This document shows, in pieces, positions 45,242-61,206 of a stretch of 64,000 bases of DNA. Numbering within the stretch: the first letter of the stretch is position 1; each line of letters opens with the position of its first letter. The stretch covers positions 1 through 64,000 of the forward strand of contig JADGNQ010000005.1 of the NCBI GenBank assembly GCA_017883385.1, in the 5' to 3' direction. The DNA comes from Candidatus Sulfotelmatobacter sp. (GTDB lineage Bacteria > Acidobacteriota > Terriglobia > Terriglobales > Acidobacteriaceae). A program made the position numbers and the translations under genes. Below the pieces are notes generated by a model. That model did not search any database and was not told the DNA's origin. It saw only the letters and a list, made by a program, of their open reading frames with translations.

Positions 45242-46159
45242 CTAGGCCTTGGTCGTAGTCCCCTTCTTCTGGTACGCCTCGTAGTAGTAGCGCGAGTAGG
45301 GCACGGCGCCCTCGTGGGTCCCGTTCAGCACCACACCCACCAGCGCCTGATCGGGAAACTGCTCGCGCGCCTTGCGGGCCATGTCGAACGGAGTTGAGTT
45401 CGAGCGAACCACCATCAACACTCCGTCGCACTCCTTGGCCAGCACGCTCGCATCGGAAACAGGAACGGCTGGGGGCGAATCGATGATGATCCAGTCGAAC
45501 AGGGGTTCCACGCGCTGCAGCAGCAGTTTGAACCGTCCATTCGCCACCAACTCCGCCGGGTCCGCCACTCCGGAACCGCTGGGAATGAAGAACAGATTCT
45601 CCAGAGGTCCGCGCTGCATGATGGAAAACTCTTCATTCTTTCCCTGCAGGTAGTCGGAAAGACCGGGATCGGACGTCGTACCCAGCATCTGGTGCAAACG
45701 CGGTGCGCGCAGATCGGCATCAATCAACAGCGCCCGCCGTCCATGCTGCCGCACCATGACCTGCGCCAGATTGGAAGCCGTGAACGACTTACCTTCCTTC
45801 GGCAGAGCGCTGGTCACAAGAAGCTTCTTGAGCGGCATGCTCTCGCGCACGTGGTACAGGCGCGAACGCAGCGTGCGGAATTCCTCCGTGCCTCGTCCAC
45901 CGTCGTCGTCGTTCAGAAACAGCATGGTCGCGAAATCCGGTTTCCACTCCACCTTTGCGCTGCGGGCCAGCAGCATATCCATGCCCGACGAACCGGAGAA
46001 GGCCGGCATTCCGACGCTGGCCGCCCCGCCAGCGCCCAGAGTTTCCGCGAGCCCCGGCCCGTCTTCCACCGGAGTCGGTCCCGGGCCGGGTTGCGCCGCG
46101 CCTCCCTGGTTCGCGCGATCCTGCTCGGCTTTTTTCAGAGCTTCATGAATTCGGCTCAT
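45242..46159 (-). CDS. EPS-locus tyrosine autokinase (CpsD/CapB-like BY-kinase)
   Basis: 305 residues. The N-terminus MSRIHEALKKAEQDR is typical of the XrtA-locus autokinase. It has Walker A SALPKEGKSF (117-126), Walker A' ALLIDADLRAP (143-153) and Walker B WIIIDSPPA. The C-terminal tyrosine cluster (YSRYYYEAYQ) is the usual autophosphorylation site. BY-kinases work with the Wzz-type partner (47302-48855) to control chain length and export. It overlaps the ATPase gene by ATGA. Confidence 0.93.
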   Translation of the reverse strand: MSRIHEALKKAEQDRANQGGAAQPGPGPTPVEDGPGLAETLGAGGAASVGMPAFSGSSGMDMLLARSAKVEWKPDFATMLFLNDDDGGRGTEEFRTLRSRLYHVRESMPLKKLLVTSALPKEGKSFTASNLAQVMVRQHGRRALLIDADLRAPRLHQMLGTTSDPGLSDYLQGKNEEFSIMQRGPLENLFFIPSGSGVADPAELVANGRFKLLLQRVEPLFDWIIIDSPPAVPVSDASVLAKECDGVLMVVRSNSTPFDMARKAREQFPDQALVGVVLNGTHEGAVPYSRYYYEAYQKKGTTTKA

Positions 46160-47151
46160 AGCTTCCTCTCATCGGAATCGGGTGTCCCATTTCTCGCGTC
46201 CTTTGCGAGAAGTGGAGCTTTTTCTTCCGGCTGTTTCAAACGTTCCGCCAGCGTGGCCAGCGACCGCAGCGTCTCAACCAGGTCGAACTTGTCCAGATTC
46301 GCGTTCTGCGCCGGTGCAGTCAGCGCCGCGGACGAAGGGGTGTCGCCCAAATCGAAATCCCTTGCCACCGCCTCCACCACCGTTGTCCCGATCACTTTCT
46401 GCTGGTCCACGAACGCGCTCACCAGACAGTGCTCGCACAGCAGGTTGATCACGCGCGGAATCCCGGTCGCGTAGCGGTGGATCGCCTCCACTGCCTCGGG
46501 ATCGAAAATCTGCTGCCCGTTTGAACCCGCGATACGCAGCCTCTGCTGCACGTATGCCTTGGTCTCGTCGAGGGTCAGCGCATGCGTCTTCGCCCGCAGC
46601 GTCAGTCGTTGCCGCAACTGGCGCAACTGCGGCTGCTTCAGCTTCTGCTCCAGTTCAGGCTGTCCCACCAGAACGATCTGCAGCAGCTTTTCCGTGAACG
46701 TCTCCAGATTGGTCAGCATGCGGATCTCTTCCAGCACTTCATCCGAGAGGTTCTGCGCCTCATCGACGATGAGCACCGCAGTCTCCCCCGCCCGGTAGCG
46801 ATCCAGCAGCCAGTTGTACAGCCGCAGCAAGATCTGGCTTTTCGCCTTCGAATCGCACGGAATGCCGAAGTCCGCCATCATGTAGTCCAGAAACTGCGGT
46901 ACGTTCAGCCGCGAGTTGAAGACGAACGCCGTCGCCACCTGCTGCAGGCGCAGCCACTCCAGCAATTTGTTGATCAGCGTCGTCTTGCCCGTGCCGACTT
47001 CCCCAGTGAGCAGCACAAATCCCTTGCGGCTCTGGATTCCGTAGGTCAGGCACGCCAGCGCCTCCTCCGTATGCCGCGTCAGGAACAAATAGCGCGGGTC
47101 CGGATTGACGTTGAACGGATTCGCCCGTAGTCCATAGAACTCTTTGTACAT
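46156..47151 (-). CDS. XrtA-locus secretion ATPase (ExeA/GspA-like AAA)
   Basis: 331 residues. The start MYKEFYGLRANPFNVNPD is diagnostic of the ExeA-like ATPases in PEP-CTERM/XrtA EPS loci. Walker A is LLTGEVGTGKTTL and Walker B AVLIVDEAQNL, with sensor-like VGQPELEQKL. AGGAA precedes the ATG at 5-6 nt. The last about 15 residues are encoded by a family-B dispersed repeat (46180-46223), which means the C-terminal tail was added or remodelled by repeat insertion. The gene then overlaps the tyrosine kinase by ATGA. Its precise role in export is not known for the family. Confidence 0.93.
   Translation of the reverse strand: MYKEFYGLRANPFNVNPDPRYLFLTRHTEEALACLTYGIQSRKGFVLLTGEVGTGKTTLINKLLEWLRLQQVATAFVFNSRLNVPQFLDYMMADFGIPCDSKAKSQILLRLYNWLLDRYRAGETAVLIVDEAQNLSDEVLEEIRMLTNLETFTEKLLQIVLVGQPELEQKLKQPQLRQLRQRLTLRAKTHALTLDETKAYVQQRLRIAGSNGQQIFDPEAVEAIHRYATGIPRVINLLCEHCLVSAFVDQQKVIGTTVVEAVARDFDLGDTPSSAALTAPAQNANLDKFDLVETLRSLATLAERLKQPEEKAPLLAKDARNGTPDSDERKL
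46180..46223. repeat. Dispersed hairpin repeat, family B, inside a coding end
   Basis: CCATTTCTCGC and GCGAGAAGTGG pair around GTCCTTT, followed by AGCTTTTT. It overlaps the 3' end of the secretion ATPase frame and encodes PLLAKDARNGTPDSDE-like residues. Confidence 0.75.
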
Positions 47152-47301: not shown

Positions 47302-48855
47302 TCAAACCCCAACCGCTTCCTTATGCTCACCCGAACCTTTGTTTCGCTTCCAGAACTTGAACTTGCCGTTCCCGTTTTCTGCCGCCACCGCGCCCACCCA
47401 TGGAACCGCCACCAGCAGGGGCAACTCCAGAGCAGCCTCAGCGTCTGCCTCGGTGCGAATCGATTTATCCCGCAGTTCAAACCACATCGCCAGGCCCAAC
47501 CCCAGCCCGATCCCGGCGGCCAGACCCCCGCCAGCAAAGAGCCAGCGGTTCGGAGAACTCGGCGAATCCGGCAAGCTTGCCTGGTTCAGCACAAACATCC
47601 GCTCGCCCTGCTCCTGTGTGTTCATCCGGACCGTCAGATCGGCCGTGCTTTTCTTGGCCAGCAAATCCTGATAAGCCTTCAGCCCGTTATCGTAGTCGCG
47701 AGTGAGTGCCTTGTACTGTTCCTCGACTGCCGGACTCAGCGACACGCGGCTCTGGTACTCCCCGATTTCCTGCTGCAGCCTCTTCTGATCGCGCGTTCCC
47801 GCCGTGATCAGGTCCGTGTACTGGTGAATCTGCAGCCGCAACTGTCGAATCTCGGGCGGCTCCATCGCCGAGGCTTTCTCGCTGCTCGTGTCGGTCGCGT
47901 CCCCGGACGCCTTGTTGACCTCGGCCAGTTTCTTTTTCACTTCCGCGATGTCGGCTTTCGTCTTGATCACATCGGGATGATCGCTCGTATAGCGCGCCTG
48001 CAACCCCAGCAACTCCGACTGCAAGTCCGACAACTGCTTTTGCAGGGTCTGCGGGTTAGTTGCGGATTGCGTGGATTTCCATGCCCCCAACTGCTGTGCC
48101 AGGATCGACTCGGTGTACGTCTTGTCCTGCTGCGCGCGGTTCAGCGTCTGCGTGTTCGACTCCAGTTGCGAGTTCAACCCCATCAGGATTTTCAGATTGT
48201 TCTCTTCGTCACCCGGAAGCTGTCCCACATAATGCTTCTTGAAAACCGCCAGCTTGCCATCCAGATCGTCCAGATTATGTTTCGCGTCTTCCAGCCCCTT
48301 GCTCAGCACGTCTCTCGTTCCGCTGGCTACAGCCGCGACGGACTGGCGGTTCTGGTCCACAATCTGCGACGTAAGGTCGGCGCAAATCAACTGCGCCTCG
48401 CGCGGCTTCGAAGTCTCGTACTTGACATAAAAACCCGGCACCGTGCTGCCTTGTCCCGGCTTCCTCCTGGCGCCGGTTTGCGTTGTGTCCACCGGGACTT
48501 GCGACATCGTGGTGTTGGCGCGGATCTCTTCAATTAGGTCGCTGGTATTCTGGCCTGCCTTGGCTAGTTGCAACCGCTCCAACATGGACTGCAAACTAGG
48601 CTGGCTCAGCACCTGCTGCTGCAGTGTCGCCATGCGCGCCGTCAGGTCTTCGGAAACCACCGGCTGCACCATGTTCTCCGGCACTTTCTGCCCTTCCACC
48701 AGGATCAGCGACTGCGACGTATACTTCGCGGGCACGAACCAGGAAATCCCGTATCCCACCAGCGGCGCCAGCAGCGCCGGGATCAGGATCACCTTCGCCC
48801 GCCGGCTCAGCATCGCCAGATAATCGTCCATCGTCAATTCGCGATTCTCAATCAT
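47302..48855 (-). CDS. Polysaccharide chain-length determinant (Wzz/PCP-like), XrtA type
   Basis: 517 residues. Membrane helices lie at about 22-40 (IPALLAPLVGYGISWF) and 439-460 (WLFAGGGLAAGIGLGLGL). They flank a long periplasmic coiled-coil region rich in Gln/Lys/Asp (LQKQLSDLQSELLGLQARY). The C-terminal tail is short and cytoplasmic with no kinase, so the kinase is the separate protein two genes on. The layout matches the chain-length proteins of PEP-CTERM EPS loci. Together with Wza and the kinase it sets chain length and export. A family-B hairpin lies just upstream of the gene. Confidence 0.92.
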   Translation of the reverse strand: MIENRELTMDDYLAMLSRRAKVILIPALLAPLVGYGISWFVPAKYTSQSLILVEGQKVPENMVQPVVSEDLTARMATLQQQVLSQPSLQSMLERLQLAKAGQNTSDLIEEIRANTTMSQVPVDTTQTGARRKPGQGSTVPGFYVKYETSKPREAQLICADLTSQIVDQNRQSVAAVASGTRDVLSKGLEDAKHNLDDLDGKLAVFKKHYVGQLPGDEENNLKILMGLNSQLESNTQTLNRAQQDKTYTESILAQQLGAWKSTQSATNPQTLQKQLSDLQSELLGLQARYTSDHPDVIKTKADIAEVKKKLAEVNKASGDATDTSSEKASAMEPPEIRQLRLQIHQYTDLITAGTRDQKRLQQEIGEYQSRVSLSPAVEEQYKALTRDYDNGLKAYQDLLAKKSTADLTVRMNTQEQGERMFVLNQASLPDSPSSPNRWLFAGGGLAAGIGLGLGLAMWFELRDKSIRTEADAEAALELPLLVAVPWVGAVAAENGNGKFKFWKRNKGSGEHKEAVGV

Positions 48856-48933: not shown

Positions 48934-50472
48934 TCAGTCAATCCGGATCGGCCGCGGTGTCCAATCCAATCCAATCGTTCCCACATGCCGGTTCGATATC
49001 CGGCTACAAGTTGTACTCCCCACGCAGAACGAGCGATCAAACGACAGCTCGTTGAACTGGTAGCTGATAAAGCCGTGGAAATTGCGCCCAAACGCACGCT
49101 GCAGCGCGCCCCCGACAAAGCCATACTTGTAGGCATTCGCGTCGTTTGCCGGACAAGAAACGTTCGCCGTTGTGCATTCGTTTACTTGCGCCTCGGTCAG
49201 CGGCTGCACGCGGCTGTTGCTCGCATATCCAATATCGACCGTCCCTCTCCACACTCGCGACAGGGGACGGTTTGCGCTCAAGCTAACGATGTCGCTTTGC
49301 GATCCCGCAAACAAACCCGACCCACTGGTTTCGAAACGCTCATACTTCAAATCCATCGACGTTTTGGGAAATTTGTAACGCAGCCGCGCCTGAGCCGCTA
49401 CCCCGATTCTCGTGTTCTTGAAAGTCGTAGAGCTCAGCGTGTCGCCCAGAAAGGTACACAACAACAGCGGAACCGTCGGATCGCTGCACACCGCACCCTG
49501 CGTATCGATGAATGTGATCTGCGGCCCGGCCCCGAGCAGCAAATCCATCCGTCCGGAAATCCGGTGTCCATACATCCCCTGAATCACGTGCGAATGAAAC
49601 GCGGTTCCAAAGACCGAGAAATCAAATCCCTGATATCCATAGACCAGCGCGACCTGCGTATGCGCCGAGAGCAGCCGGTTGTATCCCACCTGGGCCGAGA
49701 CCTGCGAGCTGCCGATGAAAGACCCACCCGTCGACACATCGTTTCCGTAGAAGTGGGTGAAGGCATATCCTCCTGCCGCCGTGACCGACGACTTGGGCGT
49801 AAGGTTTTCGGTAACGTCGACCAGGCTTACGTTCAGGATGCGCGGCGCCAGTCCCAGGCTGCCCAGGCTCGTGCCTCCCCAGAAACTGCCGAAAGCGGAG
49901 TTGCCTAGCGATTCAATTCCTTGCGAACCCAGCGAACCATAAGACCCACCGAAGGTGCCTTCGGGCAGGTAGCTGAAGCTGTCGCGCACCGACAACTGTC
50001 CCCGCTTCCAGGTAATCTTCTGGTCAAAATCCATCTGCTGCAGCGTTTTGAAACCCAGCCCATTCGAGTTGTAGTACGCGACTCCGCCCACGTAGTCGAG
50101 CGCCAGGTCGTAGTGGCTCCACAACCGCTGCAGCGTCAAACTTCCCAGCGCGCGGCTGACCGAGCGCACCGACCCGCCTCCAACTGCGCCCGCCACGTTT
50201 GAGTCTGCCGACTCACTGATTGTCGCTCCCGGCTGCAGGTAACTCAGTGGAGCCGCGTGCGGCTCCAGCGACGGCATATCCAATCCCGAGAGCGGCGGAT
50301 TCTCGCTGGCAGGAGGCGGCACATTCTCCTGGCCATACGCCGGCGTAGGCTCCTGCTGCCCGCTCTGCGGAGCAGCCCCGGTCGCTGGCGCCGTGGAACT
50401 GTCCTGGGCCCACGCTGCACTCAGTGCGCAGGCCAACATCCCTAGGGTCCAAACACTTCGAAGTTTGCTCAT
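48934..50472 (-). CDS. Outer-membrane beta-barrel protein of the XrtA/EPS locus
   Basis: About 512 residues from the ATG at 50472, which has AAGGA 5 nt upstream; a GTG one codon earlier also exists. A Sec signal (TLGMLACALSAAWAQ) is followed by a Pro/Gln/Ala-rich linker and then about 400 residues of alternating amphipathic strands with aromatic ends (YDLALDYVGGVAYYNSNGLG, then VALVYGYQGFDFSVFG, then FHGFISYQFNELSFD). This is typical of an outer-membrane barrel. Similar hypothetical barrels accompany Wza in XrtA loci and may form an export channel. It lies 8 bp after the Wza gene. Confidence 0.85.
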   Translation of the reverse strand: MSKLRSVWTLGMLACALSAAWAQDSSTAPATGAAPQSGQQEPTPAYGQENVPPPASENPPLSGLDMPSLEPHAAPLSYLQPGATISESADSNVAGAVGGGSVRSVSRALGSLTLQRLWSHYDLALDYVGGVAYYNSNGLGFKTLQQMDFDQKITWKRGQLSVRDSFSYLPEGTFGGSYGSLGSQGIESLGNSAFGSFWGGTSLGSLGLAPRILNVSLVDVTENLTPKSSVTAAGGYAFTHFYGNDVSTGGSFIGSSQVSAQVGYNRLLSAHTQVALVYGYQGFDFSVFGTAFHSHVIQGMYGHRISGRMDLLLGAGPQITFIDTQGAVCSDPTVPLLLCTFLGDTLSSTTFKNTRIGVAAQARLRYKFPKTSMDLKYERFETSGSGLFAGSQSDIVSLSANRPLSRVWRGTVDIGYASNSRVQPLTEAQVNECTTANVSCPANDANAYKYGFVGGALQRAFGRNFHGFISYQFNELSFDRSFCVGSTTCSRISNRHVGTIGLDWTPRPIRID

Positions 50473-50480
50473 CACGTTCC

Positions 50481-51104
50481 TTACGGGACCACCACGGTGT
50501 CGCCCGGTTTCAGGGCGATGTTCTGTTCCGGATGATTCCCTTTGATGACTTCCTTGTAATTGAACGGATACTTCTCCTGTTTGCCGTTCTCCATGCGCAG
50601 CAGATAGATCCCCTTGAGGTTGGCGAATTGCGTGAAGCCCGCCTGCGCCAGCGCCTGCAGCATGGTCATGTGCGGCAACAATGCCATCGGTCCGGTATGT
50701 GTGACTTCTCCCGTCACAAAGATCCGCCGGCTGTTCATCGCCGTCACTACCACCGTCACTCGCGGATCGGCAATGTACTTCTTCAGTTTCTCGGTGATCG
50801 AATCCTTCAGCTGCAGCGGGGTCAGCCCGGCCGCCGGAATGTCGTTCAGCAGCGGCATCGAGATCTTCCCATCGGGACGCACCGGCAGCGTTTCCGTAAG
50901 ATCAGGCTCCTTCCACACCGAAATGCGCAGCGTGTCGTCGGCTCCAATCACATAGTCGGACGCACCCTCCGCCGCCTGTGCCACTTCAGAGGGCTTCGCA
51001 TCCGAACTCTTCCCCGCATCGCTGGTCTGCGCCACCAAGCCGCCCGCCAGCAACCCCACCCACACGAGCACCGCAAGCTTCATCCATCTCGTCGTCACTT
51101 TCAT
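50481..51104 (-). CDS. Polysaccharide export protein (Wza-like), XrtA type
   Basis: 207 residues with a Sec signal (LAVLVWVGLLAGGLVAQ). The mature part has the Poly_export domain (YVIGADDTLRISVWKEPDL, VRPDGKISMPLLNDIPAAG) and a SLBB domain (RRIFVTGEVTHTGPMAL, MTMLQALAQAGFTQFANL). No lipobox cysteine is visible, so unlike E. coli Wza it may not be a lipoprotein. At about 200 residues it matches the short Wza of XrtA loci. Its ATG overlaps the stop of the upstream regulator (ATGA). Confidence 0.93.
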   Translation of the reverse strand: MKVTTRWMKLAVLVWVGLLAGGLVAQTSDAGKSSDAKPSEVAQAAEGASDYVIGADDTLRISVWKEPDLTETLPVRPDGKISMPLLNDIPAAGLTPLQLKDSITEKLKKYIADPRVTVVVTAMNSRRIFVTGEVTHTGPMALLPHMTMLQALAQAGFTQFANLKGIYLLRMENGKQEKYPFNYKEVIKGNHPEQNIALKPGDTVVVP

Positions 51105-52096
51105 GCCGTCTCCGCGGAGCCCTGACGCCCCGTTCCTTCACGTCCAATCTGCTTCAACTTGTAGAGCAACGCCTTGTAGCTGATCTGCAATTCCTCCGCG
51201 GCGCGCCGGCGGTTCCAGCGCGTGCGCGTCAATGCGCTCAGTATCAGTTCCTTTTCCGCTTCGCGCGAAGCCGCTCTCGACGCCGCCTTCAGCGAAACGC
51301 CGGCATTCTTGCCGCCCCCATTGGGCTTGCGCAAGAGCGCGCGCAGACCACCCATGGCGACGTGCTCGTCTCCCAGCGCCACCAGCACCCGGGCCGCATT
51401 TTCCAATTCGCGCAAGTTTTCCGGCCACGAATAATCCAGGAACAGGCGCAGCGTCTCCGCGCTCAGATCCGGAACTGGCCGGCGAAAATCACGCGCGTAC
51501 TTGCGCAGGAAGTGCCCCATCAAAAACGGAATGTCTTCTCTCCGCTGGCGCAACGGAGGCAGCCGCAGGCACACTCCGCTGATGCGGTAATACAGATCCT
51601 CGCGCAGTCGTCCCTTCTTAACCTCGACTTCCAGATCGCGCGCACTGCCACAGATGAACCGGGCCCCATCACTACCGGCCACGCCATTCCCCGTCGCTTG
51701 CGGCAATGCCTCCAGCAACCGCTCCTGGCAATCCGCGCTCAAATCAGCCAACTCTTCCAGGTAGATGGTGCCCGCTCCCAGCCGATCCTCTCCGTTCCCC
51801 TGCGAAACCGCTAGGTCTTCGAGCCTGAGGTTGGAACACTGAAACCAGCGAAAGGGTTGCGCGCTTCGCTGCGACATCTCATGGATGCGCTGCGCCGTGG
51901 CATGCTTGCCCGCGCCGGTCTCCGCCAACAGCAATACCGGCACTTCCCTTTGCGCCAACTCCCGGATAACCGCCTCGACCGGGCTCATGCTGGCGCTCAC
52001 ACCCTCCACGAACCTCAGTTCCGGCGGCCCAGTGAACAAGCCGGCGCCGTCGCCATTTTCCGCATTAGGCTGAGACAGAGACAAAGAGTTGCCCAT
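51101..52096 (-). CDS. Sigma-54-activator-like regulator lacking GAFTGA
   Basis: 331 residues: an AAA+ central domain plus a Fis-type HTH, no receiver. Key motifs have changed. Walker A is AETGAGKH (58-65) instead of GESGTGKE, Walker B is GTIYLEEL (109-116) instead of GTLFLDEI, and the L1 loop with GAFTGA is missing. The stretch between the Walker motifs is about 15 residues shorter than in the intact paralogue at 56863. The R-finger region (LREDLYYRISG), PLRQRREDI and WPENLRELENA are kept. The HTH (WNRRRAAEELQISYKALLYKL) is nearly identical to those of the other two activators. It heads the EPS operon and likely competes with or modulates them. Confidence 0.9.
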   Translation of the reverse strand: MGNSLSLSQPNAENGDGAGLFTGPPELRFVEGVSASMSPVEAVIRELAQREVPVLLLAETGAGKHATAQRIHEMSQRSAQPFRWFQCSNLRLEDLAVSQGNGEDRLGAGTIYLEELADLSADCQERLLEALPQATGNGVAGSDGARFICGSARDLEVEVKKGRLREDLYYRISGVCLRLPPLRQRREDIPFLMGHFLRKYARDFRRPVPDLSAETLRLFLDYSWPENLRELENAARVLVALGDEHVAMGGLRALLRKPNGGGKNAGVSLKAASRAASREAEKELILSALTRTRWNRRRAAEELQISYKALLYKLKQIGREGTGRQGSAETA

Positions 52097-52158: not shown

Positions 52159-52174
52159 AGCACGAGGCATGCCA
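52159..52174 (-). promoter_or_regulatory. Candidate sigma-54 promoter of the EPS operon
   Basis: Read on the minus strand the sequence is TGGCATGCCTCGTGCT. The GG and GC pairs have the exact -24/-12 spacing of sigma-54 promoters (TGGCAC-N5-TTGCA). It lies 63 bp upstream of the operon's first start codon, giving a leader of about 50 nt. Confidence 0.5.
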
Positions 52175-52199: not shown

Positions 52200-52219
52200 A
52201 AGTAGTGATGATACTACTT
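52200..52219. promoter_or_regulatory. Perfect dyad, possible regulator binding site
   Basis: AAGTAGT and ACTACTT flank GATGAT, a perfect 7-bp inverted repeat about 26 bp upstream of the candidate sigma-54 promoter. A Fis-type dimer could bind such a dyad. Whether it is the enhancer is unknown. Confidence 0.35.
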
Positions 52220-52464
52220 GTTTTCAATAGGTTAGGGCAAGGCGATCGGGTGCTGTGGAAGACTGGGCAAGATCGCTTCTCACTGCGCCGGGGAAATGTA
52301 GGGAATATTTTTCCCAATCGAAGTCAGTTCCGTCCTGCATTCGAATCGGAAATTCAGGCCCTCGAACGGGCGGCGGCTATGCCGCTCTCGCCCAATCTCG
52401 GCGTTTGCACGCCCGCATGGTTTCGCTTATTCTGACCTCTCCTCAAGTAGCGCTGTAATCGAAT

Positions 52465-54051
52465 TTGAACCACTTGGTGCAAACGTCTCCAACTGTACGC
52501 CCGCGCGCCGGACTACCCCGCACACCCCCTGTCTGGCAGATGACCGTCCTCGCCGGTTTGTTGCTCTGGCTCTACGCTCCCATCCTTGGGCACCTGGTCG
52601 GCCAGTGGGCGCATGACCGCGATTTTGGTCACGGATTCTTCGTACCGTTATTCTCCGCCTACGTGCTCTGGCAGGAGCGCGGCCGCCTCGCGCACGTCTC
52701 GCGAAAGCCTTCCTGGTCGGGGCTCCTGATACTGGCGATCGGGCTGTGCGTCCTGATGCTCGGCCAATTAGGCGCCGAGCTCTTCCTCGCGCGCTTCTCG
52801 CTGCTGCTGGCACTCGCAGGCCTGATCGCCCTCTTTGCTGGATGGAGTTTCTTTCGAGCCACTCTGTTCCCGTGGGCCTTCCTGCTGCTGATGATTCCGA
52901 TCCCTGTCATCCTCTTCAATCAGATTACTTTTCCCTTGCAGTTGCTGGCTTCACGAATGTCGGCGGGCGTGCTGGAATTGCTTGCCGTTCCGGTGGGGCT
53001 CGAGGGCAATGTTCTCAAACTGGCCGCCATGACGCTGAACGTGGCCGAGGCTTGCAGCGGCATTCGCTCGCTGATGTCTCTGTTGACGCTCGCCATCATC
53101 TACGGCTACCTCATGGAAAAGCGGCTCTGGGTGCGCTGGTTGCTCGCTCTGGCATCCGTGCCAATCGCGATCGCCGCCAACAGTATCCGCATCATCGGCA
53201 CCGGATTGCTCGTCCAGCACGACTACGCCGAGGAAGCCGAGGGCTACTTCCATGCCTCGTGGGGCGTGATCATCTTCGTACTCTCTCTCTTCATGCTGTA
53301 CGCTCTGCACGCGCTCGTCCGCTTGCTATGGCGCGAGAAAGGCGACGCCGCAGACAGCCGTTCGGAGGTGACGGGGGAACAGGTCGACGAAAATCGGCGA
53401 CCCGTGACCAGTCGCCCCTCCCATTTCATCCTGGCCACGCTCCTGCTCGCCTCCGTCGCCGTCTTGCTGCAGGTCCGCACCCGCAGAGAGATCTTCCCTC
53501 CTCGACGTGCCCTGAATTCGTTTCCCCAGCAACTGGAACCCTGGACCAGCAACGACATTCCCATCGACCAGGACACCCTCGACGTGCTCGGACACGGGGA
53601 ATTTCTCCACCGCAGCTACCAGACGCAAGTGGACCAGCCCGACGTGGATCTCTTCATCGCCTACTTCCCCAGCCAACGCGCCGGCGATACGATCCACTCG
53701 CCGAAACACTGTCTACCGGGGTCGGGCTGGAGCCCCATCGAGTCCCGGCGCATCAGCCTCTCGTTTCCCGGCCACGCCCCATTTCCGGCCACCCGTTACC
53801 TCATCGCCAAAGGAGATTTCCGGCAGGTGGTTCTTTACTGGTACTGGGCGCACGACCGCGGAGTTGCCAGTGAGTACTGGGCCAAGTACTACCTGGTCAA
53901 AGACTCCATCCAGATGAACCGCACCGATGGCGCCCTGGTGCGCATCACCACTCCCCTGTCCCCGGACGAAACCCCCGATGCAGCACAACAACGCCTTCTT
54001 CCCTTCGCCGCTGACGTGATGCCATTACTGGATCGCTACATTCCACGCTGA
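52465..54051 (+). CDS. xrtA: Exosortase A fused to EpsI domain
   Basis: 528 residues. The TTG at 52465 is the furthest start; GTG 52477 or ATG 52540 are alternatives since no strong ribosome binding site is seen. Eight or so TM helices carry the exosortase active site: Cys197 in AEACSGIRSL, Arg242 in ANSIRIIGTG and His263 in YFHASWG. The C-terminal about 190 residues are a periplasmic EpsI (DUF3485) domain (HSPKHCLPGSGWSP). Exosortases process PEP-CTERM sorting signals and are tied to EPS loci. It is divergent from the EPS operon. No clear PEP-CTERM substrate is in this window. Confidence 0.95.
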   Translation: MNHLVQTSPTVRPRAGLPRTPPVWQMTVLAGLLLWLYAPILGHLVGQWAHDRDFGHGFFVPLFSAYVLWQERGRLAHVSRKPSWSGLLILAIGLCVLMLGQLGAELFLARFSLLLALAGLIALFAGWSFFRATLFPWAFLLLMIPIPVILFNQITFPLQLLASRMSAGVLELLAVPVGLEGNVLKLAAMTLNVAEACSGIRSLMSLLTLAIIYGYLMEKRLWVRWLLALASVPIAIAANSIRIIGTGLLVQHDYAEEAEGYFHASWGVIIFVLSLFMLYALHALVRLLWREKGDAADSRSEVTGEQVDENRRPVTSRPSHFILATLLLASVAVLLQVRTRREIFPPRRALNSFPQQLEPWTSNDIPIDQDTLDVLGHGEFLHRSYQTQVDQPDVDLFIAYFPSQRAGDTIHSPKHCLPGSGWSPIESRRISLSFPGHAPFPATRYLIAKGDFRQVVLYWYWAHDRGVASEYWAKYYLVKDSIQMNRTDGALVRITTPLSPDETPDAAQQRLLPFAADVMPLLDRYIPR

Positions 54052-56862: not shown

Positions 56863-57924
56863 TCAGTCCGCCGCAACATCCTGCTTAGGACTGTCCGCGT
56901 CGCGGCGCTTGATGGCCCGATTCGAAGGCAGGCCCGCATCGCGAATCTTGTACAGCAGGGCGCGGTAGCTGATGCTCAACGCGCGTGCTGCCTGCTTGCG
57001 GTTCCAGTGGCAGTTCTGCAGAACCTTCAGGATGACTTTCCGTTCCAGTTCGCGCACCGCGGCGCGAGTGAGTTTCTTCAAAGAGATCTGTCCATCCACC
57101 GGAATCTCAGCGCTGAAAAAATCGGGTTCGCGCGGCCGCAGGTCGCTGGCGATGACTTCTTCGTTGCCCAGAATCACATAGCGCTTGACCAGATTTTCCA
57201 GTTCGCGGATGTTGCCCGGCCAGTGATATTTCCGCAGCACCGCCATCAATTCACCGGAGAGCGGTTTCGCGCGGCAGTTGTACTTCCGGTTGTGGTATTC
57301 GAGGAAATACGTCACCAGTTCGGGAATGTCGGCGGCGCGCTCGCGCAACGGAGGCAGATGCAGGTTCACCACGTTGATGCGATAAAACAAGTCCGCGCGG
57401 AAGGTACCGTTTTCAATCTCCTGCTCAAGTTTGCGATTGGTGGCGCAGACTACGCGCACTTCGACTTTCTTGTCTTCTTGCGCGCCGATGCGGCAGAACT
57501 GGCCGTCCTGCAAGAGTTGCAGCAACTTCGATTGCAGCCCCAAATCCAGTTCAGAAATCTCGTCGAGAAACAGCGTGCCGCGATGCGCCATCTCCACCCG
57601 GCCCGGCTTCATGCCGTAGGCGCCGGTGAAGGCTCCCTTTTCGTAGCCGAACAATTCGCTTTCCAGCAGTGTGCCCGGAATCGCCGGGCAATTCACCTTG
57701 ACCCATGGTCCGGTGCGCCACGGCGAAGACGCATGAATCATGCGCGCGATAATGTCTTTGCCAGTTCCGCTCTCTCCCTGGATGAGCACCGGAACGTTCG
57801 CGCTCGCCAGTTTGGTCAGGCGGTCGCGGACGGCCTGCATGCCCTCGGTGCGCCCAAAAACAATGGTTTCCGGCGGCATTTCCCCCAAGGGTTGGACGAG
57901 CGAACTGACACTGCTGGTTGTCAT
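56863..57924 (-). CDS. Sigma-54-dependent activator without receiver domain
   Basis: 353 residues. An AAA+ domain with Walker A GESGTGKD (50-57), an intact GAFTGA (97-102) and Walker B GTLFLDEI, followed by a Fis HTH (WNRKQAARALSISYRALLYKI). There is no N-terminal receiver or sensor, so activity may be constitutive or set by a partner. It should open sigma-54 promoters with ATP hydrolysis. A sigma-54-like promoter lies just upstream of its own start, suggesting self or cross control. It stands between the TPR gene (convergent) and the PilZ gene (same strand). Confidence 0.95.
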   Translation of the reverse strand: MTTSSVSSLVQPLGEMPPETIVFGRTEGMQAVRDRLTKLASANVPVLIQGESGTGKDIIARMIHASSPWRTGPWVKVNCPAIPGTLLESELFGYEKGAFTGAYGMKPGRVEMAHRGTLFLDEISELDLGLQSKLLQLLQDGQFCRIGAQEDKKVEVRVVCATNRKLEQEIENGTFRADLFYRINVVNLHLPPLRERAADIPELVTYFLEYHNRKYNCRAKPLSGELMAVLRKYHWPGNIRELENLVKRYVILGNEEVIASDLRPREPDFFSAEIPVDGQISLKKLTRAAVRELERKVILKVLQNCHWNRKQAARALSISYRALLYKIRDAGLPSNRAIKRRDADSPKQDVAAD

Positions 57925-57957: not shown

Positions 57958-57973
57958 TGCACCTGGAGAGCCA
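57958..57973 (-). promoter_or_regulatory. Candidate sigma-54 promoter of the stand-alone activator
   Basis: On the minus strand: TGGCTCTCCAGGTGCA, with GG and GC at the correct spacing and TGCA at the -12. It is 34 bp from the ATG at 57924, leaving a leader of about 20-25 nt. Confidence 0.5.
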
Positions 57974-58121
57974 AAGCCAGCCACGCGCAAATGCGGTCCT
58001 ACCAAATCTAGCTTATCTAATTGAAGGCTATCAACTTACCAAAGAGCCGAATCAGCGTACTCCAGTAATCTGGAGATGGACCCCACGGTAACACCATCCC
58101 CCATGCTATGCGCAAACATTT

Positions 58122-58502
58122 TCACACAGCAGAAGCGACCTTCCGTACCCGGAAGCCGTTGGAGCCGACGGGATGCAGCAGTGGACGCGAGAACTTGAGG
58201 CCGAGCAGGTAGTAACCTTCGGCTGGTGTGGTGCGAAGTGCCTTGGCTCGAAGAGTCCGCGATGCCCTCGGCAACAAAGCCAACGCGGCCACAGGGGCGC
58301 TGGGAATTTCCAACTGGATCTGGGCAACGACGGGCATTGTCCGGCGAATCGCCACCAACATTCCGCCCGCGCTGACGTTTAGAGCGGTGGCAAACTCGAG
58401 AAACTCCTTGCCCTTGCCGTCGCGGCTGCGAACGAAAACGGGGATCGCCAGCGGCAGCCTTGCCCACTTTCGCCGCTCTCCCCCCAGTCTTGCCACGCTC
58501 AT
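58122..58502 (-). CDS. PilZ-domain protein (possible c-di-GMP receptor)
   Basis: 126 residues from the ATG at 58502 with AGAGG 6 nt upstream. The PilZ pattern is visible: ERRKWARLPLAIPVFVRS as the Arg-rich N-terminal box, then ATALNVSAGGMLVAI in place of the D/NxSxxG motif (here NVSAGG). PilZ domains bind cyclic di-GMP and often adjust EPS synthesis. Whether ligand binding is kept depends on both motifs, which are close to consensus. A longer frame (58036-58668) in another register is not supported. Confidence 0.82.
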   Translation of the reverse strand: MSVARLGGERRKWARLPLAIPVFVRSRDGKGKEFLEFATALNVSAGGMLVAIRRTMPVVAQIQLEIPSAPVAALALLPRASRTLRAKALRTTPAEGYYLLGLKFSRPLLHPVGSNGFRVRKVASAV

Positions 58503-58858: not shown

Positions 58859-59803
58859 ATGGCCACTGCCCATAAGAATACGTGTGTGTCCGGCGCGGGT
58901 GGAGCTTCAGCTCCGGAACCGACGCCTCGTCCTGCTCGAGGTTCGGATGGCGATGTTCCCAGCCCGGAGAACCTGCTGCGGGAGTACAACGAACTGCGCG
59001 CGCGCTTTCAGCGCACGACGAATGCTCTGGGCTCAGCCGCGCACGATCTAAAAACACCGCTGTCGATTCTGAACGGCTACGTCGAAGTTCTACACAGCGA
59101 GAAGCTTGGCCCTCTCAACGACCGCCAGCGCGAAGTCTTGCGCGACATGCAATCCAGCGGAAAGCGCCTGCAGCAATTCATTCAGGATTTCCTGACCTAC
59201 AGCGCGCTCGAAACCGGCGGGCTGCGCATGCAGTTCGAACACGGAAATATTAACGAGTGCCTATCGGAAGTGTGCCGGCTGTGGTCGAACCACTTTCAGG
59301 AAAAAGGTCTGGCGCTTTATTTTCTTGCCAACGACAAGTTGCCGGCCTTTCCCTTCGACTCCCCGAAGCTGGAGCGCGTCATCTCGAACCTGTTGGAAAA
59401 CGCATTCAAGTTCACGCCCCCGGGCGGAACGGTCTGGCTGCATGCGGAACCGCACATGTGGGATCGCCGCGCGGCCGCAGTGCCCTCCACCGCCGAGCGC
59501 CGCCGCCAAAATCTGAGCCACCCAAACTCGGTCAAAGTCAGCGTTTCCGACACCGGGCCGGGGATTCCGGCAGAGTTCCATCTGGAAGTCTTTGACGACT
59601 TTTTCCGCCTTCCCGGCACCGAGAGCCAGGAAGGAATGGGATTGGGCCTCGCCATCGCGCGCCGCTTGGTACAAGGCATGGGGGGCAAGATCTGGGTCGA
59701 GAGTGATCCGGGAGTAGGGTGCAAGTTTTCGTTCCTGGTTCCGTATAAACCGGTTCCCGACAAACCGGTCACAGCCGCCGCCAGCAAAGGGAAAAACCGA
59801 TGA
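58859..59803 (+). CDS. Soluble sensor histidine kinase (PrsK-like position)
   Basis: 314 residues. HisKA with phosphoacceptor His62 in SAAHDLKTP, and HATPase_c with NLLENAFKFT, DTGPGIP and GMGLGLAIARR. The N-terminal about 40 residues are a Pro/Ala-rich stretch without TM or PAS/GAF domain, so the input is unknown. The classical PrsK of XrtA systems is larger and membrane-bound, so this is at best a reduced analogue. Its stop overlaps the start of the response regulator (ATGA), making them a coupled pair. Confidence 0.94.
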   Translation: MATAHKNTCVSGAGGASAPEPTPRPARGSDGDVPSPENLLREYNELRARFQRTTNALGSAAHDLKTPLSILNGYVEVLHSEKLGPLNDRQREVLRDMQSSGKRLQQFIQDFLTYSALETGGLRMQFEHGNINECLSEVCRLWSNHFQEKGLALYFLANDKLPAFPFDSPKLERVISNLLENAFKFTPPGGTVWLHAEPHMWDRRAAAVPSTAERRRQNLSHPNSVKVSVSDTGPGIPAEFHLEVFDDFFRLPGTESQEGMGLGLAIARRLVQGMGGKIWVESDPGVGCKFSFLVPYKPVPDKPVTAAASKGKNR

Positions 59804-61206
59804 AGCAAACCGCCAAAATCCTGCTGGTAGATGACGAACCCGGCATGCTCCGCTACATCAAGACTCTGCTCGAAGTCGACGACTACAAGGTCGAGACTGC
59901 GACCACCGGAGAAGAAGCTCTGCAGCGCGTGGAGAAGGGTCTGCAACCCGACCTGGTTCTGCTCGACGTGCTCATGCCCGGCATCGACGGCTTGCAGACT
60001 CTCGAGCAACTCCGGCAGATGCAGCCCGGCGTCAAAGTCGTCATGCTTTCGTGCGTCAACGACACGCGCAAGGTTGTCCACGCGATGAAACTGGGCGCGC
60101 TGGACTATCTCACGAAGCCCTTTCAGAAGGCGGAACTGGACGCGGTCATCGATCTGAGCCTCGGCCAGGGAAAACAGACTTACAGCGGAGAAGTCGAAGA
60201 ACTCTCCGACGACGTCTTCTTCATCGCGGCCAGCCCGCAGATGCGCAAGATTCGCTCACAGGCTGCGCTCGTGGCGAATGTGGACATCCCCGTGCTCCTT
60301 CTCGGCGAAAGTGGAACCGGCAAGGAAGTTCTCGGGCGATTGATTCACAAGCTCTCGCCGCGCGCCCACCGCACGTTCCTGAAAGTGAATTGCGCCGCCG
60401 TTCCCGCCGACCTGCTCGAAAGCGAACTGTTCGGTTACGAACCGGGCGCCTTCACCGGTGCGACGCATGCCAAGCCGGGCAAGTTCGAGATCTGCAACAA
60501 GGGCACAATTCTGCTCGACGAAATCGGCGAGATGCCGCCTTCCTTGCAGGCGAAACTTCTGCACGTGTTGCAGGATCAACAGTTCTCTCGCTTGGGCAGC
60601 CGTTCCCTGATCAAGGTCGATGTGCGCATTCTCGCCGCAACCAACATCAACATTCCACAAGCGCTCGCGAACAAGAGCCTGCGCGAGGATCTCTACTACC
60701 GGCTGAATGCCTTCACCATGCAGATTCCGCCACTGCGTGAGCGCAAGGAAGAGATTCCCATCCTGCTGAAGCACTCCATGTCGCGGATGGCGGAGCGTTA
60801 TGCTCGTGCCCCACTCCCGCTCTCTCCGGCGCTGCTGAAAGCCTGCCAGGATCATTCCTGGCCGGGCAATCTGCGCGAGCTGAATAACTTCCTCAAACGT
60901 TACTTGATTCTTGGGGATGAAAACCTGGCCGTGTCCGAATTGCTCCCGCGGAACGATGGCAATGCCGGGTTACACGGAGATTCCGCGCCGCGGTCAGCGG
61001 ATTCAGGCGGGTTGAAGTCCCTGGCGCGGACCGCGAAAGATGAAGCCGAAGCGCAGGCTATTACCCAGGCTCTGGAACAAACCAACTGGAACCGCAAGCA
61101 GGCCGCCGTCATTCTCCAGATCAGCTACAAGGCTCTGCTCTACAAGATCCGTCAGTATGGGATTGCTGAAGTGAAGAGCCACCACAAGCTGTCAGCGGGA
61201 GCGTAG
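59800..61206 (+). CDS. NtrC-family response regulator (PrsR-like), sigma-54 activator
   Basis: 468 residues. Receiver domain with phosphoacceptor Asp56 (LVLLDVLMP) and Lys106 (YLTKPF), AAA+ domain with GESGTGKE (169-176), an intact GAFTGA (216-221) and GTILLDEIGEM, and a Fis HTH (WNRKQAAVILQISYKALLYKI). It fits PrsR, the response regulator of XrtA EPS systems. The HTH recognition helix is nearly identical to those of the proteins at 51101 and 56863, so they may share DNA sites. It is translationally coupled to the histidine kinase. Confidence 0.95.
   Translation: MKQTAKILLVDDEPGMLRYIKTLLEVDDYKVETATTGEEALQRVEKGLQPDLVLLDVLMPGIDGLQTLEQLRQMQPGVKVVMLSCVNDTRKVVHAMKLGALDYLTKPFQKAELDAVIDLSLGQGKQTYSGEVEELSDDVFFIAASPQMRKIRSQAALVANVDIPVLLLGESGTGKEVLGRLIHKLSPRAHRTFLKVNCAAVPADLLESELFGYEPGAFTGATHAKPGKFEICNKGTILLDEIGEMPPSLQAKLLHVLQDQQFSRLGSRSLIKVDVRILAATNINIPQALANKSLREDLYYRLNAFTMQIPPLRERKEEIPILLKHSMSRMAERYARAPLPLSPALLKACQDHSWPGNLRELNNFLKRYLILGDENLAVSELLPRNDGNAGLHGDSAPRSADSGGLKSLARTAKDEAEAQAITQALEQTNWNRKQAAVILQISYKALLYKIRQYGIAEVKSHHKLSAGA

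Follow-up and report, generated by a model that had tools for sequence, protein, structure and literature searches.

Relatives of the sigma-54 activators that have no GAFTGA motif have been described at sigma-70 promoters (statements on published systems, here and below, follow the accessible portions of the papers cited). TyrR, DhaR and HupR are sigma-70 dependent, and VpsR and YplP, both without GAFTGA, are argued to be probably not sigma-54 dependent (PMC3162934); Caulobacter NtrC, also without the loop, acts at sigma-70 promoters, and VpsR and Rhodobacter NtrC are cited likewise (PMC10274813). A second kind of departure from the standard activator is found in paralogous partners that meet at one sigma-54 promoter. 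HrpR and HrpS form a mixed hexamer in which both keep all motifs (PMC7057263), VnfA1 and VnfA3 work on the same targets with mixed oligomers likely (PMC9542535), and FleT, which has no DNA-binding domain, is made from the FleQ/RpoN2 promoter and then joins FleQ (PMC11999139). At exosortase loci, PrsR is the sigma-54 regulator of PEP-CTERM systems in Proteobacteria (PMC1569441).

The gene studied here heads a polysaccharide-export operon of the acidobacterium Candidatus Sulfotelmatobacter sp. and lies in a stretch of 64,000 nucleotides, analysed as a whole and called the window below (Table 1). Its product is like the canonical REC-less bEBPs (PspF, HrpS type) in its AAA+ fold, R-fingers, Fis HTH and lack of a receiver domain, and unlike them in having no GAFTGA loop 1, a shortened loop 2 and changes of the Walker A Gly and the Walker B Asp. 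With VpsR, HupR, TyrR, DhaR and the NtrC proteins of Rhodobacter and Caulobacter it has in common the loss of the sigma-54-contacting loop, and VpsR, too, controls polysaccharide. The N-terminal receiver-like domain of VpsR and HupR, in which TyrR differs from them, is not present in the head protein. Whereas the GAFTGA-less proteins described so far belong, as far as the accessible text goes, to sigma-70 promoters, the head gene has a conserved sigma-54-like promoter, a putative enhancer and an intact paralogue, and it is the sigma-54-like promoter together with the adjoining intact paralogue that sets it apart from them.

Its likeness to HrpR/HrpS, VnfA1/VnfA3 and FleQ/FleT would be that of paralogous partners at one sigma-54 promoter, and FleT would be the closest parallel in the scheme proposed below, being made from the promoter that its partner fires and missing one functional part. 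In contrast to the head protein, HrpR and HrpS are complete, and what FleT misses is the DNA-binding domain instead of the sigma-54 loop. PrsR resembles the present case in that an exosortase/EPS locus is under sigma-54 control and has an upstream motif, but it belongs to the response regulators and has a receiver domain, and the accessible part of its description mentions no loop-less head gene (PMC1569441). Going by titles and the openings of abstracts, in a search that left most of the subscription literature outside, we found no paper on a loop-less head gene and none that joins GAFTGA with Acidobacteria, dominant negative action or a heterohexamer.

Table 1. Genes and predicted sites around the head gene (window positions; strand in brackets, a point where no strand applies)
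Feature	Position	Strand	Basis or remark
Polysaccharide biosynthesis tyrosine autokinase	45242..46159	(-)	family match
XrtA/PEP-CTERM system-associated ATPase	46156..47151	(-)	304.4 bits, under the cut-off of 324.5
Wzz/XrtA-type chain length determinant	47302..48855	(-)	family match
Conserved operon protein without Pfam or NCBIfam match	48934..50475	(-)	outer-membrane beta-barrel is a guess
Polysaccharide export protein	50481..51104	(-)	overlaps head gene by 4 bases
Head gene, GAFTGA-less REC-less sigma-54-activator-like protein (AAA+ plus Fis HTH)	51101..52096	(-)	ORF, Pfam, alignment, tree
Candidate sigma-54 type -24/-12 site TGGCATGCCTCGTGCT, 63 bp before head-gene ATG	52159..52174	(-)	score
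TTGAAA element, about 53 bp upstream of -24	52222..52227	(-)	relaxed form in 21/21 genus promoters
Predicted palindromic enhancer (UAS) TAGGGAATATTTTTCCCA	52299..52316	(.)	EM motif score
Divergent exosortase-EpsI fusion, intergenic region common with head gene	52465..54051	(+)	family match
Intact REC-less sigma-54 activator with GAFTGA, proposed partner	56863..57924	(-)	motifs, Pfam, co-occurrence
Candidate sigma-54-like site TGGCTCTCCAGGTGCA before partner gene	57958..57973	(-)	score
Weak UAS-like dyad (score 11.1), about 144 bp above the partner gene's -24 site	58109..58126	(.)	motif score
PilZ-domain protein	58122..58502	(-)	Pfam
Histidine kinase adjoining response regulator 59800	58859..59803	(+)	Pfam
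Intact REC-containing sigma-54 response regulator, PrsR-like (below cut-off)	59800..61206	(+)	family match, motifs

Results

The head protein and its operon

The head protein is 331 amino acids long and has, by Pfam and fold comparison, an AAA+ domain homologous to PF00158 followed by a lid and a Fis HTH. The Sigma54_activat match is split into two stretches, of which the best covers residues 108-175, the AAA lid is matched too, and the Fis HTH (PF02954) scores 42.2 bits against a cut-off of 22, while Response_reg gave no Pfam match in a protein whose N-terminus is short and variable. GAFTGA, that is loop 1, is absent, and the loop 2 (pre-sensor I) hairpin is shortened as well. Walker A reads AETGAGKH and Walker B GTIYLEEL, the first Gly of the one being replaced by Ala and the Asp of the other by Glu so that neither motif is intact, and the R-finger stretch reads GRLREDLYYR. 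An AlphaFold model of the protein (pLDDT 80.5) has the bEBP fold and is of low confidence at residues 98-102 and 136-139, the places expected for the two loops, and also at 1-27, 258-266 and 323-331. Fold searches with this model returned the common bEBP fold only, with NtrC1 (1ny5; Z 23.9, rmsd 2.5 over 222), PspF (4qos; Z 22.0, rmsd 3.2 over 216) and VpsR (7v2b; Z 21.4, rmsd 3.2 over 218) as matches. Judged from these features, the head protein is a descendant of the sigma-54 activators that lacks the motif by which they are defined. Binding of c-di-GMP as in FleQ was considered, but no conserved match to the pocket residues was seen by eye.

The stop codon of the head gene overlaps the start codon of the export gene (ATGA, 51101-51104), and a scripted count places the export gene directly after the head gene in 99 of 106 loci. 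The export frame is also present in three of the other seven (L003, L016 and L105, where it is outscored or overlapping), and in L106, L108, L117 and L125 another gene of the system comes after the head gene. On the far side of the divergent intergenic region lie the exosortase-EpsI fusion and PrsT. The exosortase-EpsI fusion of the window passes the XrtD (VPLPA-CTERM) cut-off with 427.9 against 400 bits, in an acidobacterium. An earlier note, made from the letters of the window alone, had placed the gene at the head of an EPS operon, had read its missing GAFTGA, Walker motifs, R-finger region and Fis HTH as given above, and had named the 56863 and 59800 proteins as intact activators; the ORF and Pfam results agree with it throughout, and both activators carry GAFTGA and GESGTGK[DE]. 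The shortening of loop 2 and the sigma-54-like look of the head gene's promoter go beyond that note.

Loss of the sigma-54-contacting loops is old

Orthologues of the head gene (E < 1e-100) are present in 27 of the 37 genus genomes, the own genome included, and GAFTGA is found in none of the 27 copies. For the wider comparison we aligned 166 EBP sequences of 280-700 amino acids, leaving out shorter and longer ones; 105 rows were scored as lost, three more (L066, L078 and L134) were judged lost by eye, and 53 were intact. The remaining five, of which four are further EBPs of the own genome and one is an activator of G171, have a variant motif and were counted with the intact group. GAFTGA is missing in all 108 rows of the loop-less group. 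The loop-1 segment has 3-17 residues in the 105 lost rows, compared with 25 in 52 of the 53 intact ones and 26 in the remaining one, and the loop-2 segment, 19 residues long in every intact row, has 11-15 in 100 of the 105 and 17-23 in five, the R and I columns of its R-I-G being gapped in 104 of 108 loop-less sequences. When both loops are left out of the alignment, one change on the tree separates the 108 lost rows from the other 58 (SH-aLRT 100). This tree is a quick search on rows collected by similarity to loop-less queries, with the outside diversity thinly sampled, and within that sample the sequences give the loop-less group a single origin. Closest to this group among the intact rows come three activators from another family (G131, G126 and G103), whose length is that of receiver-less proteins and whose genes likewise stand about 500-580 bp above an export gene.

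In a survey of the class, 84 of 399 evenly drawn genomes match a distant relative at 1e-58. Reading these matches left 79 genomes without the motif, four (G103, G126, G131 and G350) with intact activators, and one (G161) with a fragment at a contig edge in which the loop is not covered. The loss of GAFTGA in the head-gene group is old and conserved. A recent loss or a sequencing error, for which the earlier note had proposed a comparison with homologues, is ruled out by the lack of an intact motif across the 27 genus copies and the wider group and by the one change on the tree. Other EBPs have variant loops as well (L147, L155 and L160 in the own genome, and L098:11814-12899), the forms seen being GAFTSA, GSFPGA, GAFTDA and GSFTDA.

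What the loop-less proteins have kept

All 108 loop-less sequences keep the P-loop Lys and the S-Y-K of the recognition helix, and each of the two R-finger Args is kept in 103, while the sensor I Asn is left in four. The first Gly of Walker A is still present in 78 and is Ala in 30, which are those of the genus and its near kin; among these 30 the Walker B Asp is changed in 28 and each R-finger Arg is kept in 29. Because the 78 other sequences still have the Walker A Gly, contact with sigma-54 was probably lost first, and the protein's own nucleotide site probably decayed later in part of the group. The R-fingers of bEBPs act on the ATP of the neighbouring subunit. Since they serve the neighbour's ATP site, we read their retention as a possible sign of assembly with a competent neighbour, although a structural role could account for their conservation instead.

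The head gene is under purifying selection, with median dN/dS of 0.122 overall, 0.116 in the AAA domain, 0.031 in the HTH and 0.483 in the N-terminus (NG86, usable pairs of 12 genus sequences), figures that are rough at the high dS of 1.5 overall. Together with 26 of 27 genus matches without an internal stop, these values rule out a pseudogene; the match in G013 crosses one TAG, and the open frame there has 320 amino acids. That the gene is a decaying relic, retained solely through its linkage to the operon, is very improbable: the Walker motifs do degrade in the genus, and the operon of three genus genomes has no head gene, but selection has been purifying, and the HTH is nearly invariant over 108 sequences from several families.

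A candidate sigma-54 promoter and a palindromic enhancer

A -24/-12 site of score at least 18 is present upstream of 79 of 103 head genes, against 8.0% of approximate dinucleotide shuffles, where the score is our own weighting of the consensus and the region searched runs from 220 bp above to 45 bp inside the called start. Seventeen of the 79 sites lie inside the called frame and count only if those starts are called too early, and the upstream regions of 24 of the 103 have no site of score 18. Neighbouring genes served as a further control, in loci that include duplicates. Such sites are few upstream of the barrel (4/118), tyrosine kinase (4/49), ATPase (8/74) and export genes (17/134), and the histidine kinase (0/14), REC activator (5/35), Wzz (9/52), PrsT (9/41), PST (8/32) and GT42 (5/18) genes have them in the numbers given, while they are frequent also upstream of PilZ (6/12), REC-less activator (14/26) and exosortase genes (31/105). 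RpoN is present in all 12 genomes checked. On these scores the head-gene promoter looks to be of the sigma-54 type, and we treat it as a candidate.

Above the 79 sites, EM found the palindromic enhancer GGGAAAAnnTTTTCCC. Its log-likelihood at width 16 was 369 compared with 45 for one shuffled set, and at six widths it was 303-462 compared with 41-55 for the shuffled set, which was given fewer restarts. The motif was sought only in these 79 regions already having a sigma-54 site, and its scores there are those of a training set: 63 of the 79 reach at least 13 and 16 fall below, against a background of 0.035 per 200 bp. The centre of the enhancer lies at a median of 135 bp above the -24 element (IQR 132.5-137.5), and L020 and L025 have a second site of score at least 13. 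Every one of the 26 genus head genes with enough upstream DNA has the enhancer at a score of 15.1 or more. The copy at 52299-52316 is the top-scoring one in the 64 kb of the window, yet the weakest of the 26 in the genus, and by eye it is one base shorter between the arms than the copies of its relatives.

In a search of seven genomes the exact pattern GRGAAAANNTTTTCYC occurs at one place each in G004, G012 and G019, just upstream of the head gene, and at none in the other four. When one mismatch is allowed, each genome has 3-12 such places, compared with 1-3 for the reversed pattern, with an excess in all seven; since these places outnumber the reversed control, other targets are possible, and two of them (G011:C17 and G014:C12) lie above an activator gene.

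Between enhancer and promoter, a TTGAAA-like element stands 52-58 bp above -24 in all 21 genus promoters examined, compared with 9 of 58 others and 6% of letter shuffles, the pattern having been picked after the sequences were viewed. The copy at 52222-52227 resembles the IHF consensus, and the element, which has its strict form in 9 of the 21 genus promoters, may be an IHF site. The perfect dyad AGTAGTGATGATACTACT, at 52201-52218 between enhancer and -24, was considered as an operator and dropped, since inspection by eye of the 20 other genus promoters showed no conservation of it.

The intact activator as the proposed partner

The recognition helix of the head protein, SYKALLYKLKQ, is closely matched by SYRALLYKIR in the intact REC-less activator 56863, and that of the 59800 response regulator is alike too (ISYKALLYKIR). 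In our tests, which covered 56863 rather than 59800, the evidence points to the 56863 protein as the partner. Upstream DNA was available for 29 of 30 genus activator loci, of which 28 have a dyad above score 10 and 16 one of at least 13, often TGTGAAAATnTTTTCCC. Near the start and about 140 bp below this dyad, a site such as TGG[CT]TCTCCGGATGCA is present in 25 of the 29, with scores of 16.5-18.5, where 16.5 is a lax sigma-54 threshold used for activator upstreams. In the window the dyad of the activator itself is weak (11.1), as it is in the nearest kin; in the seven head-less genomes that have an activator it scores 19.3 (G011), 16.5 (G034), 16.2 (G031), 14.5 (G001), 12.5 (G006) and 10.3 (G016), and is absent in G027. 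With a sigma-54-like site and a weak enhancer of its own at the same spacing, the 56863 activator may control itself.

Intact head genes of a sister family have the enhancer as well (L242 17.1, L243 15.8 and L029 20.6, with L244 at only 10.7). Because both they and the activator genes carry it, we ascribe the motif to the lineage of the intact activator, where it probably belongs; the loop-less protein, with so similar a helix, may also bind it. Among loci with SYKS in the loop-less helix, the activator reads SYRLL in all four that have an activator in view (L108, L118, L123 and L125), and the enhancer half tends to TTTGCCAC, a hint that loop-less helix, activator helix and enhancer half have changed together.

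The two proteins also occur together, as would be looked for in a hetero-oligomeric pair. All 27 head-bearing genus genomes have the activator, a paralogous intact protein with a like HTH (two matches are partial, one of these with stops), and in the class 70 of the 80 head genomes (a total that includes G161) have it, compared with 99 of 319 genomes without a head gene; detection was at E 1e-95 among five scored candidates per genome, with no account taken of shared ancestry. Ten of the 80 show no activator, and four of these (G070, G072, G078 and G157) are 95-99% complete.

With confidence evenly divided for and against, we propose that the head protein is a brake, a pseudo-activator that modulates its own sigma-54 promoter and lowers the firing of the export operon. 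Activator 56863, intact and REC-less, would bind the enhancer at 52299-52316 and fire the sigma-54 promoter at 52159-52174, and the first product of that transcript would be the head protein, without both sigma-54-contacting loops and with its HTH, P-loop lysine and R-fingers. The head protein would then occupy the same enhancer, enter mixed rings with the activator, or both, and further firing of the export operon would be lowered or capped. Binding of the enhancer by either protein, their meeting and the net negative effect we infer. The feedback gains weight because the head gene's own promoter looks sigma-54 dependent. Against it stand the described GAFTGA-less relatives, tied to sigma-70 promoters in the accessible parts of the reports (PMC3162934, PMC10274813), and a second loop-less head family of the genus, which has no conserved sigma-54 promoter. 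The earlier note had suggested a DNA-binding antagonist or an architectural partner of the intact activators; the near-identical helix and the common enhancer motif now add to this DNA sites that the protein would have in common with the intact activator, while partnership and sign stay conditional.

The same common helix, common enhancer motif and kept R-fingers would equally suit a co-activator, a specialised non-contacting subunit of mixed rings on which the intact activator depends or by which its choice of targets is changed, as may be compared with HrpR/HrpS, VnfA1/VnfA3 and FleQ/FleT. In six loci (L093, L102, L110, L113, L119 and L126) the partner gene is directly upstream and co-directional, and FleT, as far as its report is accessible, does join FleQ after being made from the FleQ/RpoN promoter (PMC11999139). 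Intact REC-less heads in other families or genera (L029, L030, L140, L242 and L244) also suggest that the head gene once fed forward. We nevertheless hold this to be rather unlikely, as the orthologue of the intact activator persists in 7 of the 10 head-less genus genomes and so is not strictly dependent on the head protein, and no partner was detected in the 10 of 80 head genomes noted above.

Operons without the head gene and a second export operon

Ten genus genomes lack the head gene, and in six of these an export gene either is missing or is of the kind found in a second operon (44-49% identity). Three others (G011, G027 and G031; loci L225, L226 and L227) have the operon without the head gene. 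In them the enhancer is absent or weak (best 12.1), reaching 13 in none of the three compared with 26 of 26 loci with the head gene, and no sigma-54 site of score at least 18.5 was found within 220 bp; at threshold 18, G027 has one site, CGGCAAGGAACGCGCT, which is 114 bp up and lacks the T in front of the -12 GC. This comparison leaves out G016 (L228), whose export gene is 61% identical in a different gene order, with a score-19 site 70 bp above. Since the head-less operons have a weak or absent enhancer and no site of 18.5, the head gene and sigma-54 control go together. This joint loss proves little, because head gene and promoter may have gone at once, and a single deletion of both could explain it.

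The second polysaccharide-export operon of the genus is found in the own genome at G000:C344:7516-9711 (L229), with relatives at L226, L230-L233, L235-L238 and L240. Its head gene encodes a receiver-type EBP. All 11 copies that could be read, among them the more distant L236, have a scrambled GAFTGA loop, and a twelfth is a fragment. In the tree L149 groups with the receiver activators, and because of this placement we take the loop loss in the second operon to be independent. The enhancer scores of these heads reach 10.0 at best, and the 11 loci together have one sigma-54 site of score at least 18 within 220 bp; from these scores the second export operon seems to have left sigma-54.

These heads are the strongest argument for an unlikely alternative, in which the head protein is a regulator of sigma-70 type that works like VpsR, HupR, TyrR or Caulobacter NtrC at other promoters and the sigma-54 operon is incidental. 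The excess of the one-mismatch pattern over its reversed control in seven of seven genomes would agree with such promoters, as would the sigma-70 promoters reported, in the text accessible to us, for the described GAFTGA-less EBPs (PMC3162934, PMC10274813), among which VpsR is likewise a polysaccharide regulator. The head gene's own promoter, however, keeps its sigma-54-like site and enhancer in most loci, and where the exact enhancer pattern occurs, once in each of three genomes, it is at the head-gene promoter.

Discussion

If the brake that we propose acts as outlined, the head gene could stand for a natural class of loop-less bEBP subunits inside sigma-54 control, a generalization to which we give slightly less than even confidence. 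Each member would be expressed from a promoter fired by its intact paralogue, would have the enhancer in common with that paralogue and would enter mixed rings with it, and an ancestral head gene that activated itself would have become self-limiting, at polysaccharide-export operons in many Terriglobia.

It is an open question how many of the subunits in a bEBP ring have to contact sigma-54 and whether mixed rings are put to use by cells. Evolution may have run the experiment here, with a paralogue that has lost its contact loops and kept its R-fingers and HTH, at the same place in several families. Such genes should not be annotated as sigma-54 activators. If the proposal is true, the question of ring subunits would become testable with natural parts, and a feedback device would be added to sigma-54 circuits.
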